A stretch of 64,000 bases of DNA, taken from NCBI GenBank assembly GCA_017937095.1, contig JAGBEG010000012.1, positions 1 through 64,000 of the forward strand, read 5' to 3'. The stretch comes from Roseburia sp. (GTDB lineage Bacteria > Bacillota > Clostridia > Lachnospirales > Lachnospiraceae). Position 1 is the first letter of the stretch. Every line of letters begins with the position of its first letter. The translations under genes and the position numbers were made by a program. Of this stretch, positions 2,414-45,350 are shown in pieces. Under the pieces are notes generated by a model, which worked only from the letters and a program-made list of their open reading frames with translations, was not told the origin of the DNA and did no database searches.

Positions 2414-3316
2414 TTAACTTGTCAGCTCGCCTTCCTCATAGCGCGCAAGATCCATGATCTTCTGCAGTTCTGCCCCCTCGACCGGCGCCTCACCAATCTC
2501 CTCGCGCTTGCCGCCCGGCAGAATCTGTCCAAGCATATGTACATCCTTTTCCTTCGTCATCTCGATTGTATAATACCCCGCCTTCTTCGTCTGCGGGTTA
2601 AAGGTGATGTACACGCGGTAGCAGAGCGTCGGAATCATTCCTTTTTCCGGTAAATCCACACGAATCAGTGTCAAATCCTCTGCGATATCAAGTGCCATGA
2701 CAGAGTAATCCGATTCCGTATAGGGATTCAGCTTCGCTTCCTTATAAGTTGCTGCAAAGATTTCATTCACGAAAGCCTCTCTCTCATCGCAAAGCTTCTC
2801 CACAAAGGTCTCTCCCTCTGTGAAAAGACGCTTCGGCATCACGCCGAACTCCACCTGCTTCTTCACGAACACATCGAACTGCTGCGGCGTCATCTTGATC
2901 TGCTTCATCTGAGGCGCTTTCTGATCCGCCTCATGAAGCTTCTCAATCAGCTCTATTTTAAGTACCAGGTTGTCCGAAAACGGATTGATGACCATTCCGT
3001 TCAGTTTTAACTCCGGCTTCACCACAATATTATTGCATGCCGGAAACGGCATCGCAAGAAGCGCCTGGCTCTTTGGCTCCGGCGGGATCTGCGCCTTGGA
3101 GGTATACGCCACAAAGAACTGCTCCCCATTATTATTCTTAAGGAAGCACGGCGTCGGCTGATCCGGCGCCTTTAACATTGCCGGAACAAACAGCTTCGTC
3201 GGGCGCAGCAGATTTAACACCGCACTAAGTTTCTCCTTGGTGCGCTCTGCGGCGTACTCCCTGATTGCTTCCTCCAATCTATCATTCGTAATCTCCATTG
3301 TCACTTTCTCATCCAT
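2414..3316 (-). CDS. SseB-family protein (300 aa)
   Basis: The first half matches the SseB N-terminal domain pattern: an N-terminal helix pair, LFVPAMLK, then a strand (FFVAYTSKAQIPP) followed by a conserved hydrophobic segment ending in NPFSDNLVLK. The second half is a typical clostridial extension with CYRVYITFNPQTKKAGYYTIE. The domain is named after a Salmonella secretion protein but is widespread in Firmicutes without a settled role, so no function is given. The start at 3316 has AAAGGAT at good distance; an in-frame ATG six codons later is less well supplied. Single gene with its own terminator; upstream lies the repeat-rich gap to glpK. Confidence 0.75.
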   Translation of the reverse strand: MDEKVTMEITNDRLEEAIREYAAERTKEKLSAVLNLLRPTKLFVPAMLKAPDQPTPCFLKNNNGEQFFVAYTSKAQIPPEPKSQALLAMPFPACNNIVVKPELKLNGMVINPFSDNLVLKIELIEKLHEADQKAPQMKQIKMTPQQFDVFVKKQVEFGVMPKRLFTEGETFVEKLCDEREAFVNEIFAATYKEAKLNPYTESDYSVMALDIAEDLTLIRVDLPEKGMIPTLCYRVYITFNPQTKKAGYYTIEMTKEKDVHMLGQILPGGKREEIGEAPVEGAELQKIMDLARYEEGELTS

Positions 3317-3343: not shown

Positions 3344-3553
3344 CGGGTATAATGTCTAACGACATTATTCCATAGACGCACAGCGTCCATGGCATTCACC
3401 GTGGGCGACCGATGCCACTCCGCTTCGCTCCGGGCGGGTATAATGTCTAACGACATTAGACCATAGACGCACAGCGTCCATGGCATTCGCCGTGGGCGAC
3501 CGATGCCACTCCGCTTCGCTCCGGGCGGGTATAATGTCTAACGACATTATACC
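3344..3553. repeat. 91-bp tandem repeat, 2.3 copies, each starting with a palindrome
   Basis: Units begin at 3344, 3435 and 3526 (partial), period 91. Each opens with GGGTATAATGTC-TAAC-GACATTA; in the third copy this is a perfect 11-bp-arm palindrome, while the first two have decayed right arms. The remainder holds a GGACGCTGTGCGTC-like hairpin and TGGCAT...ATGCCA arms. The first two full units differ at very few positions, so the duplication is recent. No translation in either direction resembles a protein. Confidence 0.85.
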
Positions 3554-3561
3554 ATGTAATA

Positions 3562-3706
3562 AGCAGTGCACATTCGGGAGCATAGCTCCCTCATTCACGG
3601 GCTTCGCCCTATCAGTTCTCACCAGAACAAATCTCTCCGTGCAAGCACAGAGATTTGCTCTGCCTCGCCCTGGCACTGCTCATTGCCTACGCGGACATTA
3701 TACCAT
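3562..3706. repeat. Multi-hairpin dispersed repeat, copy 1
   Basis: About 145 bases, homologous to 45208-45350 in the same orientation. Outer arms GCAGTGC (3563-3569) and GCACTGC (3673-3679) enclose GGAGCATAGCTCC, GGGCTTCGCCC and a long stem CAGAACAAATCTCT / AGAGATTTGCTCTG (13 of 14 pairs). The block ATTCGGGAGCATAGCTCC is identical in both copies, whereas the long stem differs in sequence but stays paired. A 13-base direct repeat GACATTATACCAT lies at 3543-3555 and 3694-3706. Lies between the divergent SseB-like and glpK genes. Function unknown: structured RNA or mobile palindrome. Confidence 0.8.
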
Positions 3707-3846
3707 ACCCCACTCATAAAATGAACTGTTTTTATTTGATAATCAAGGCAGTTCTTTCTTCATTTTTGTCCATTATTGTTAATAAAAAGACAATCTTTCT
3801 CCCGTTTTTGTCAATTCTGCACATCTGTAAAAATCCCCATTATCAC

Positions 3847-44216: not shown

Positions 44217-45149
44217 TCACGACACCCGGTCGGGTCTGTTTACAATATAAATTCCGATGCACACCAGAAGCAGCGCCACAATGCACATCACGCCAAGGCT
44301 GTCATTCTCCCCGAGCAGAAGCGCTGATAAGATAACGCCGAACACCGGGTTCATGAACCCAAATACCGCAACACGCGATATCGGATTATATTTTAGCAAA
44401 ATCCCCCACAGGGAATACGCCACCGCAGATAAAAAAGCCAGATAAATAAGCATCAGGACGCCGCTTCCCGTCCACACAGTCAGTCTGCCGCCCGCCGCAA
44501 ATCCGCAGGCAATCATAATGATACCGCCGATGCAGAACTGCCAGCCGCTCAGTACGACCGGATTCTCCTCCTTCGAATATCGTTTCAGATACACTGAGGA
44601 AAATGCATAGGCGATTGTCGAGAGAAAAATAAATCCTTCTCCCAAAAAAGAAAAGCCCAGATCCACGCCGCTCCCCGTCAGATTCACAAGCACTACGCCC
44701 GCAAAGCCGATGATGCTTCCGATGATTTTCTTTGCATTTAACGGCTCCTGATGAAAGAGCAGACTCGCGACCAGAATTGCAATAAATACGTTGACGCCCT
44801 CGATAATGGACGCTTTTACTCCTGTCGTATGGGCAAGCCCCACATAGAAAAAGAGATACTGCGCGACCGTCTGCAGCATACTAAGCCGTACAATTTTTCC
44901 CCATGACGCACGCTTTGGAACAAGCAGCGTCCGGCCTGCCACGCTGCCGATCAAAATCGCAAGGATTCCCGCAAGTGTAAAACGACAGCCTGCAAACAAA
45001 ATCTGCGCCGCCACATCCTCCGATGCAATGGCAAACATTTTATATCCAAGCTTGATACAGGGAAACGCGCTTCCCCAAAGGGCGCAGCAGAGCAGCGCGC
45101 CCAGCCATACTACAATCGTTTTCTGCATAAATTGTTCTTTTGCACTCAT
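44217..45149 (-). CDS. EamA/DMT-family transporter
   Basis: 310 residues with ten hydrophobic spans in two EamA halves (ALLCCALWGSAFPCIKLGYK; later FVLSGWQFCIGG-type segment and YNPISRVAVFGFMNPVFGVI). Probable metabolite or amino-acid exporter; substrate unknown. Start 45149 gives GGAG at 7 bases; the ATG at 45155 sits right on the RBS. Faces the GT2 gene across a gap of 422 bases. Confidence 0.85.
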   Translation of the reverse strand: MSAKEQFMQKTIVVWLGALLCCALWGSAFPCIKLGYKMFAIASEDVAAQILFAGCRFTLAGILAILIGSVAGRTLLVPKRASWGKIVRLSMLQTVAQYLFFYVGLAHTTGVKASIIEGVNVFIAILVASLLFHQEPLNAKKIIGSIIGFAGVVLVNLTGSGVDLGFSFLGEGFIFLSTIAYAFSSVYLKRYSKEENPVVLSGWQFCIGGIIMIACGFAAGGRLTVWTGSGVLMLIYLAFLSAVAYSLWGILLKYNPISRVAVFGFMNPVFGVILSALLLGENDSLGVMCIVALLLVCIGIYIVNRPDRVS

Positions 45150-45207
45150 TTTCATACTCCAGATTCATTCTATGATTACGCCAGCACGAATCACACACCT
45201 TTACTCA

Positions 45208-45350
45208 CAGTGCAGATTCGGGAGCATAGCTCCCTCATCCGCGGGCTTCGCCCTATCAGTCCGCAACGGAATAAATATCCTCGTGCAGGCACGGATATTT
45301 ATTTCTTTACGGACTGGCACTGCTCATTGCCAACGCGTACATTTTAGCAC
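45208..45350. repeat. Multi-hairpin dispersed repeat, copy 2
   Basis: Homologue of 3562-3706. GGAGCATAGCTCC and GGGCTTCGCCC are unchanged. The long stem is CGGAATAAATATCC / GGATATTTATTTC here against CAGAACAAATCTCT / AGAGATTTGCTCTG in copy 1: both arms changed together. An extra CAGTCCG / CGGACTG stem (7 pairs) exists only here. The right end ACGCGTACATT matches ACGCGGACATT of copy 1. Also placed between divergent genes. Confidence 0.8.

Follow-up and report, generated by a model that had tools for sequence, protein, structure and literature searches.

Clostridiales-1 RNA (RF01699) is the Rfam family nearest to the element described here. A 2010 table answers 'probably' to the question of whether it is an RNA and 'probably not' to that of a cis-regulatory role (PMC2864571). 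ERIC, NEMIS/Correia and RUP are described as dispersed, intergenic elements of ~100-150 bp that are co-transcribed with their neighbours, and action through RNA structure has been proposed for ERIC and other MITEs (PMC2229807). REP elements are 20-40 bp long and often tied to Y1 transposases (PMC3733652). In comparison, the element analyzed here (the R1 element, after its covariance model) resembles ERIC, NEMIS and RUP in being about 100-150 bp long, dispersed and intergenic, and it resembles REP elements and REPtrons in being palindromic, chromosomal, non-coding and present in many copies. Unlike ERIC, NEMIS and RUP, it shows no general target duplication, is placed exactly and in sense behind a -10 box, and has variable, covarying stems. 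Unlike the 20-40 bp REP elements, it is ~130 nt long with a multibranched fold. Dispersal and absence from orthologous sites in relatives, two features expected of a bacterial MITE, were both found for the R1 element. In the literature on Clostridiales-1/RF01699 and on Lachnospiraceae repeats, MITEs and structured RNAs, no description of the R1 element was found among the matches listed, and this large family of ~130-base elements is apparently undescribed.

The window, that is, the whole stretch of 64,000 nucleotides of Roseburia sp. DNA that was analyzed, contains two copies. The first-pass annotation had placed them at 3562..3706 and 45208-45350, and both were found there. The hairpins GGAGCATAGCTCC and GGGCTTCGCCC are each present in copy 1 and copy 2, and the long stem varies in both arms between the copies yet remains paired, as had been claimed. 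The copies are 80% identical (E 2.2e-31, BLAST in their own genome) and scored 156.5 bits (copy 1) and 152.6 bits (copy 2) with the R1 model. The functional strand of the element is the minus strand of the window, and all of the window features located below lie on that strand.

Copy 1 was delimited to 3563..3696 by BLAST, folding and R1, and is predicted to form the 5' leader of the downstream gene. That gene (2414..3316) is co-oriented with the element and encodes an SseB N-terminal domain (Pfam PF07179, E 4.4e-15). Its extended -10 sequence, TATGGTATAAT, was read at 3697..3707, and the element begins directly behind it; the TATAAT hexamer at 3702-3697 adjoins the 5' end of copy 1 at 3696. 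Alignment, folding and covariation define the closing stem P1, in which the 5' arm GCAGTGC (3673..3679) pairs with the 3' arm GCACTGC (3563..3569). Within it lies P2, a long variable hairpin at 3611..3672 with a G(CUUG)C-type apex at 3639-3648, identified by folding, covariation and an arm-duplex test. The small hairpin P3, GGGCGAAGCCC (3599..3609, alignment A1), has a conserved UGAUA just 5' of it, and P4 (3576..3590, alignment and covariation) is a hairpin, GGGAGCTATGCTCCC, atop an internal loop read by eye as GA/GA. Copy 2 occupies 45208..45340 (BLAST, folding and R1) behind a -10 box, TAAAAT, read at 45341..45346, and is followed by a co-oriented EamA-family transporter gene (44217..45155; Pfam PF00892, E 2.5e-32).

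The stretch between copy 1 and the SseB-domain gene (3346..3553) holds a tandem array with a period of 91 that belongs to another hairpin family, and GGTATAATGTCGTTAGACATTATACC occurs in it three times with 0-1 mismatches, compared to 0 occurrences expected. The core of this array, TATAATGTCGTTAGACATTATACC, was also seen directly behind a -10 box in a sister-species locus (L271) and is present in a Roseburia locus (L198). It may represent a second family with a like placement.

The element had been described as a two-copy element. Instead, about 30 copies were detected in the 3.9 Mb genome. BLAST with copy 1 against its own genome returned 52 pieces at E<=10, copy 2 among them. A covariance model, R1, was then built from 21 aligned near-complete copies of the same genome and gave 53 matches at E<=1, with 30 below 1e-9. 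These 30 strong matches comprise 28 that span the model, including the 21 used to build it, and two partial copies that lie beside another; part of the weaker matches are palindromic shadows on the opposite strand. The identity among copies at different loci reaches 95%, with a median of 75% over 210 pairs, and proliferated subfamilies are present among the copies.

A search of Lachnospiraceae genomes with the covariance model, a check named in the annotation, revealed a dispersed family with matches in at least 87 of 200 genomes. At most 14 candidates were scored per genome in this survey, and at most 10 in the survey of the class, so presence is a lower bound in both. Within the genus, 13 of 24 genomes have matches (40 in the genome under study, 22 in the sister genome G020, 8 in G004 and at most 4 in the others). 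In the class, at least 9 of 291 genomes matched at E<=1e-4; four belong to the same family, including the genome under study, and five weaker ones lie outside it. Three of these five outside matches (L300, L301 and L302) also begin behind TATAAT, as judged by eye. Hungatella, Enterocloster, Roseburia, Blautia, Lachnoclostridium, Eisenbergiella, Hespellia and others are carriers named among the matches listed, where the named matches fall in Lachnospiraceae and one title reads Muribaculaceae MAG (L192). The family pattern had no match in 2.9 million viral contigs, and BLAST with copy 1 had none among plasmids or in phage records; dissemination on such vehicles was rejected on these grounds, and the absence is unexpected for a freely moving element.

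Two loci deserve separate mention. A distant relative in another Clostridia family (L298, 1440-1735) is flanked by a ~60-base direct repeat that, by eye, takes in the beginning of the gene behind it, giving the appearance of a leader duplicated by insertion. In two different genera (L093 and L094), the element occupies the same site, behind the same upstream gene and ahead of a gene that, judged by eye from the beginning of its protein, resembles ilvD, which suggests one site occupied long ago or repeatedly.

Folding of the minus strand was far better than that of shuffled sequences, with z-scores of -5.4 (copy 1) and -6.3 (copy 2), and 0 of 200 shuffles were as good. The 5' part of the consensus on this strand reads CRCGNNRG-CAAUGAGCAGUGC (P1 5' arm), followed by P2 with its G(CUUG)C-type apex. 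The 3' part consists of the UGAUAGGGCGAA hairpin P3, P4 over the GA/GA loop, and GCACUGC (P1 3' arm), often with GGAGUA; GG directly follows the closing stem in 96 of 138 copies. A further 86 copies, 84 of them distinct, were taken from family members and aligned by fitting to the R1 model, which biases the alignment toward the structure; 95.5% of its cells were paired and both sides had changed at 26 of 32 pairs. The excess of covariation that the annotation had proposed to look for in a wider alignment was present, with a score of 0.640 compared to 0.044-0.076 for slid controls, in which pairing was only 35-48%, and 0.151 for shuffles. An alignment-free comparison of the P2 arms gave a duplex energy of -32.0 kcal/mol within a copy versus -10.5 across copies (142 copies), and only 8 of 1136 cross-copy arm pairs were equally stable. 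Furthermore, of 138 copies, 123 fold better as the sense strand than as the complement, and G-U pairs are more numerous in the sense strand (227/6302 versus 95/6047). An architectural DNA site, which had been listed as a possible function, is disfavoured because one strand is preferred.

The changes in the stems had been taken as direct covariation evidence for selection on structure. Conservation at the level of structure was borne out, whereas the claim of direct evidence for selection proved too strong when four orthologous copies were compared between the genome under study (G000) and its sister G020. At one locus (L054/L264) six pairs had changed on both sides, all of them in the single hairpin P2, and the remainder of the element was nearly identical. 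Four such pair changes were found at L058/L267 and none at L043/L277 or L050/L260, while the pairs of the G000 fold that are broken in G020 numbered 3 at L043, 8 at L050, 2 at L054 and 5 at L058. At L050 one short hairpin differs in length between the two genomes. The pattern at L054/L264 looks like whole-hairpin replacement, and the covariation in P2 need not have arisen by stepwise compensation; DNA-level events, either conversion of the whole hairpin or repair templated by a hairpin, could also produce it.

At Rfam gathering thresholds there was no match in the window, and the claim that the element belongs to no known family holds at that level. Clostridiales-1 RNA matched end to end but below its threshold of 48, with 24.9 bits in the window, a best score of 34.7 in 15 loci of the same genome and a best score of 44.3 in 20 family loci. 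MicroRNA models of Rfam scored up to 38 bits on these same hairpins, indicating that sub-threshold Rfam scores are inflated, and the link to Clostridiales-1 was therefore handled cautiously. Both families are multi-copy in the genus, Clostridiales-1 being over its cut-off in 14 of 40 relatives with up to 19 matches per genome, and they share a closing stem, a long hairpin with a CUUG-type apex and a GA/GA hairpin. However, the order of the short hairpins, as read by eye, appears to differ, the GA/GA hairpin being last in the R1 family and second in Clostridiales-1, and CAAUGAGCAGUGC and UGAUAGGGCGAA are characteristic of the R1 family. The one over-threshold Clostridiales-1 copy of the genome under study (C14:152227) is not among its 53 R1 matches. 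When 12 Clostridiales-1 copies were inspected by eye, seven were at a stop codon, one was behind a terminator, two were behind -10-like sites and two were unclear. The two families were treated as branches of one kind of element, and the R1 family was not filed as Clostridiales-1.

The position of the element relative to transcription signals is exact. In 108 of the 143 distinct upstream flanks a TATAAT-like -10 box lies 8-13 nt ahead of CAATGAG, at a distance of exactly 11 in 92 of them, and 81 of the 108 have the TG of an extended -10. Exact TATAAT occurred 75 times at distance 11 and only 3 times more than 12 bases upstream when 80 bases were examined. A -35 signal, defined as four or more matching bases out of the six of TTGACA, was present at a spacer of 16-18 in 52 of the 108 flanks; three control spacers gave 13, 18 and 12. 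This signal lies outside the element, and the stretch from the -35 to the extended -10 is not conserved; judged from their sequences, the -10 and -35 sites look like promoters of the host rather than the element's own. That most copies start behind a -10 hexamer, largely at one exact distance, and that the -35 lies outside the element are new here. We know of no MITE with an exact sense placement behind a -10 box.

Promoters are not the only sites. When 148 flanks were classed (165 were found and near-duplicates dropped, with 10 loci missed by the search expression), 99 had a -10 box, 10 a T-run and 25 a stop codon only, and 14 had none by these rules, several of the latter with a weak -10. 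One copy (L095) lies directly behind a tRNA (64.5 bits). Two (L149 and L128) lie behind a SAM riboswitch (74.0 and 71.4 bits) and its terminator, with the next gene read as metK, and another (L085) behind a T-box-like leader (76.3 bits, under the threshold of 93). A T-run of at least 5 within 30 bases after the closing stem was found in only 5 of 138 copies.

Both window copies sit between divergently transcribed genes, as had been noted, but this setting is not a rule of the family; the rule is a co-oriented gene downstream. By a crude ORF caller, the nearest downstream ORF was co-oriented in 46 of 55 copies (one more had no ORF) and, in a second count, in 53 of 65 (15 more of 80 had none), and the nearest upstream ORF was co-oriented rather than opposite by 39 to 16 and 58 to 19. 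Of the opposite calls, at least three concern short ORFs that lie ahead of a sense gene, as judged by Pfam for L047 and L056 and by eye for L094. Candidate downstream genes of the same genome were sought on the sense strand only; 20 of the 23 were scanned with Pfam, and all 20 had matches. These genes are diverse (ArgS, UvrD, MutS, TruA, AddB, anaerobic NTP reductase, EPSP synthase, SpoVA and others); no shared pathway or functional theme was found among the 20, and the pattern is not that of a pathway-specific leader or riboswitch.

Presence and absence of the element were compared between species. At the sseB locus there was no R1 match at E<=1 in 20 congeneric loci (L221-L240 without L229, plus L242), and several of the ten that were read carry -10-like sites and a TTCATT-like -35 at the equivalent place. 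The EamA locus of six congeners had no strong R1 match. Weak matches were seen there in L247 (12.5 bits, E 0.21, at a -10-like site) and L246 (20.1 bits, on the other strand), and L245 has the sequence CAATGAGCACTGCG, by eye a likely scar; these three signals may be remnants of older elements.

The comparison with G020 covered 23 orthologous loci from a joined query and the sseB locus, 24 in all, by BLAST, alignments and R1, with remnants recognized partly by eye. The element is full length in both species at six (L258, L260, L264, L267, L277 and L272, the last with only 40 bits) and truncated or reduced to a remnant in G020 at another six (L263, L265, L274, L276, L279 and L280). Possible remnants were noted by eye at two (L259 and L269), the element is absent from G020 at nine (L221, L261, L262, L266, L270, L271, L273, L275 and L278), and L268 is not comparable. 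The clearest empty sites with the promoter in place are L262, L270 and L261. At L262, GTATGGTATAAT precedes the leader in the empty site and the element in the filled one, and at L270 the empty leader begins CGCGT, a possible small remnant. At L271 the place of the element behind its -10 is taken by the other hairpin family, L273 represents a stop-codon site without the element, and remnants such as GCAATGAGCCGTG-CAGCGGAG at L279 fit loss of the hairpin part by deletion. Many outgroups back the direction of change at the sseB locus only, and absence from the sister species at many loci could reflect loss rather than non-insertion.

Parts of the element are also repeated next to it. Such repeats were found downstream in 44 of 142 distinct loci and upstream in one, amounting to 68 downstream partial copies versus 1 upstream; a looser search found repeats in 58 of 157 loci, with any upstream match in three. 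Forty-four of the 68 downstream copies end at the 3' end of the element and have scattered starts. The other 24 stop before that end, which disfavours simple 5'-truncated reinsertion; such reinsertion and biased tandem duplication are both possible origins of the partial copies.

With the family, its structure, strand bias and position, its presence in one species and absence from another, the near-identity of copies from unrelated loci and internal deletions all read from sequence comparison, the reading we prefer, with somewhat better than even confidence, is that of a dispersed, non-autonomous, mobile-like structured RNA element at transcript starts, comparable in kind to ERIC and other bacterial MITEs, that becomes a 5' leader. 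The REP-like or mobile character that had been suggested is supported by the dispersal and by the presence and absence between species, which we infer to reflect transposition-like insertion. Copies would be gained in sense, placed exactly behind the -10 box of a host gene (at or close to +1) or alternatively right behind a stop codon, a leader terminator or the 3' end of a tRNA, upstream of a gene. The element would then be transcribed from the captured -10 as a 5' leader, or as an intercistronic part of an mRNA, and would fold into the long, variable P2 and two short hairpins, closed by the stem P1; the RNA may protect or insulate the 5' end of the transcript. The most likely route would be a putative insertion into DNA melted by RNA polymerase. 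Polymerase-opened DNA would explain the promoter and terminator sites, but not obviously the stop-codon sites. The fuller proposal, in which transposon-like targeting of promoter-melted DNA and of terminator or transcript-end sites always runs along transcription, the RNA begins at the captured +1 and the downstream flank gathers truncated copies, is considered unlikely as a whole. No target-site duplication was evident, since a 14-mer test equalled its control, and a flanking repeat was found in 0 of 152 loci in a search that would miss repeats under about 15 bp. A longer autonomous form with an insert was not found in the fetched loci.

The possibility was considered that the element belongs to the host as a cis-acting leader RNA (a 5' stabilizer, a processing site or an antitermination-like device), which gene conversion has spread and selection has retained, so that its position reflects its function. 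This is a serious, if less likely, alternative. The mostly sense orientation, the near-zero spacing to a -10, terminator or stop, the strong structural conservation, the copies behind the SAM riboswitch and the sub-threshold T-box match, and the absence of matches from viral contigs, plasmids and phages are all in its favour. One of the four orthologous copies (L050/L260) is moreover 97% identical over ungapped columns where the locus is 88% identical. However, the other three pairs (91, 85 and 85%) are little or not above their flanks (84-89%), the 20 downstream genes have no functional theme, the subfamilies have proliferated, and turnover is fast, only six of 24 loci, one of them weak, being full length in both sister species. 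Multi-copy, independent genes for trans-acting small RNAs, one form of the small RNA suggested by the annotation, would account for the -10 ahead of most copies and the compact stable fold. This reading is very improbable, because the element lies in leaders and between operon genes, often with no promoter directly ahead (25 flanks with a stop codon only), ahead of genes that share no theme, and is so rarely followed by a T-run.

Two further explanations invoke a known type of mover. A retro-mobilized, SINE-like element, whose RNA is reverse-transcribed and inserted at transcription sites, would make the downstream partial copies 5'-truncated inserts, in agreement with their excess on the downstream side and with the 44 that reach the 3' end from scattered starts, and three RVT_1 matches were present in G020. 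Nevertheless this origin is improbable: the 24 copies that fall short of the 3' end do not fit, tandem duplication and decay could also yield partial copies, the congener G016 has 15 RVT_1 matches but no element copies, and the genome under study, the most copy-rich of 24, has none. In that assembly, which is 94.6% complete, 0 matches were found to RVT_1 (PF00078) and Y1_Tnp (PF01797), the two families searched. The second explanation is a REP/IS200-IS605-type palindrome that a Y1 (RAYT-like) transposase mobilizes in single-stranded form. It accords with the multi-hairpin palindromic anatomy, the preference for one strand, the chromosomal dispersal and three Y1_Tnp matches in G020, but is most unlikely, given that no resident Y1 transposase was found in G000, that G003 has 8 Y1_Tnp matches and no element copies, and that no short motif common to the promoter, terminator and stop-codon junctions was visible in 148 flanks.

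If the preferred reading of a dispersed, mobile-like element is true, Clostridiales-1 RNA would gain a setting, grouped with the R1 family as a dispersed element of leaders and gene ends, and the exact placement behind a -10 makes transcription-site-targeted insertion in bacteria testable. Many Lachnospiraceae leaders bear a ~130-nt fold that has no Rfam family, and such leader folds may alter the expression of housekeeping genes between strains.

Ten of the 15 RVT_1 matches in G016 have identical scores (139.9 bits, 466 aa). At five loci (L051, L057, L104, L062 and L079) a second -10-like site was seen within ~20 bases of the 3' end of the element, and at L051 and L057 that end also lengthens the closing stem.
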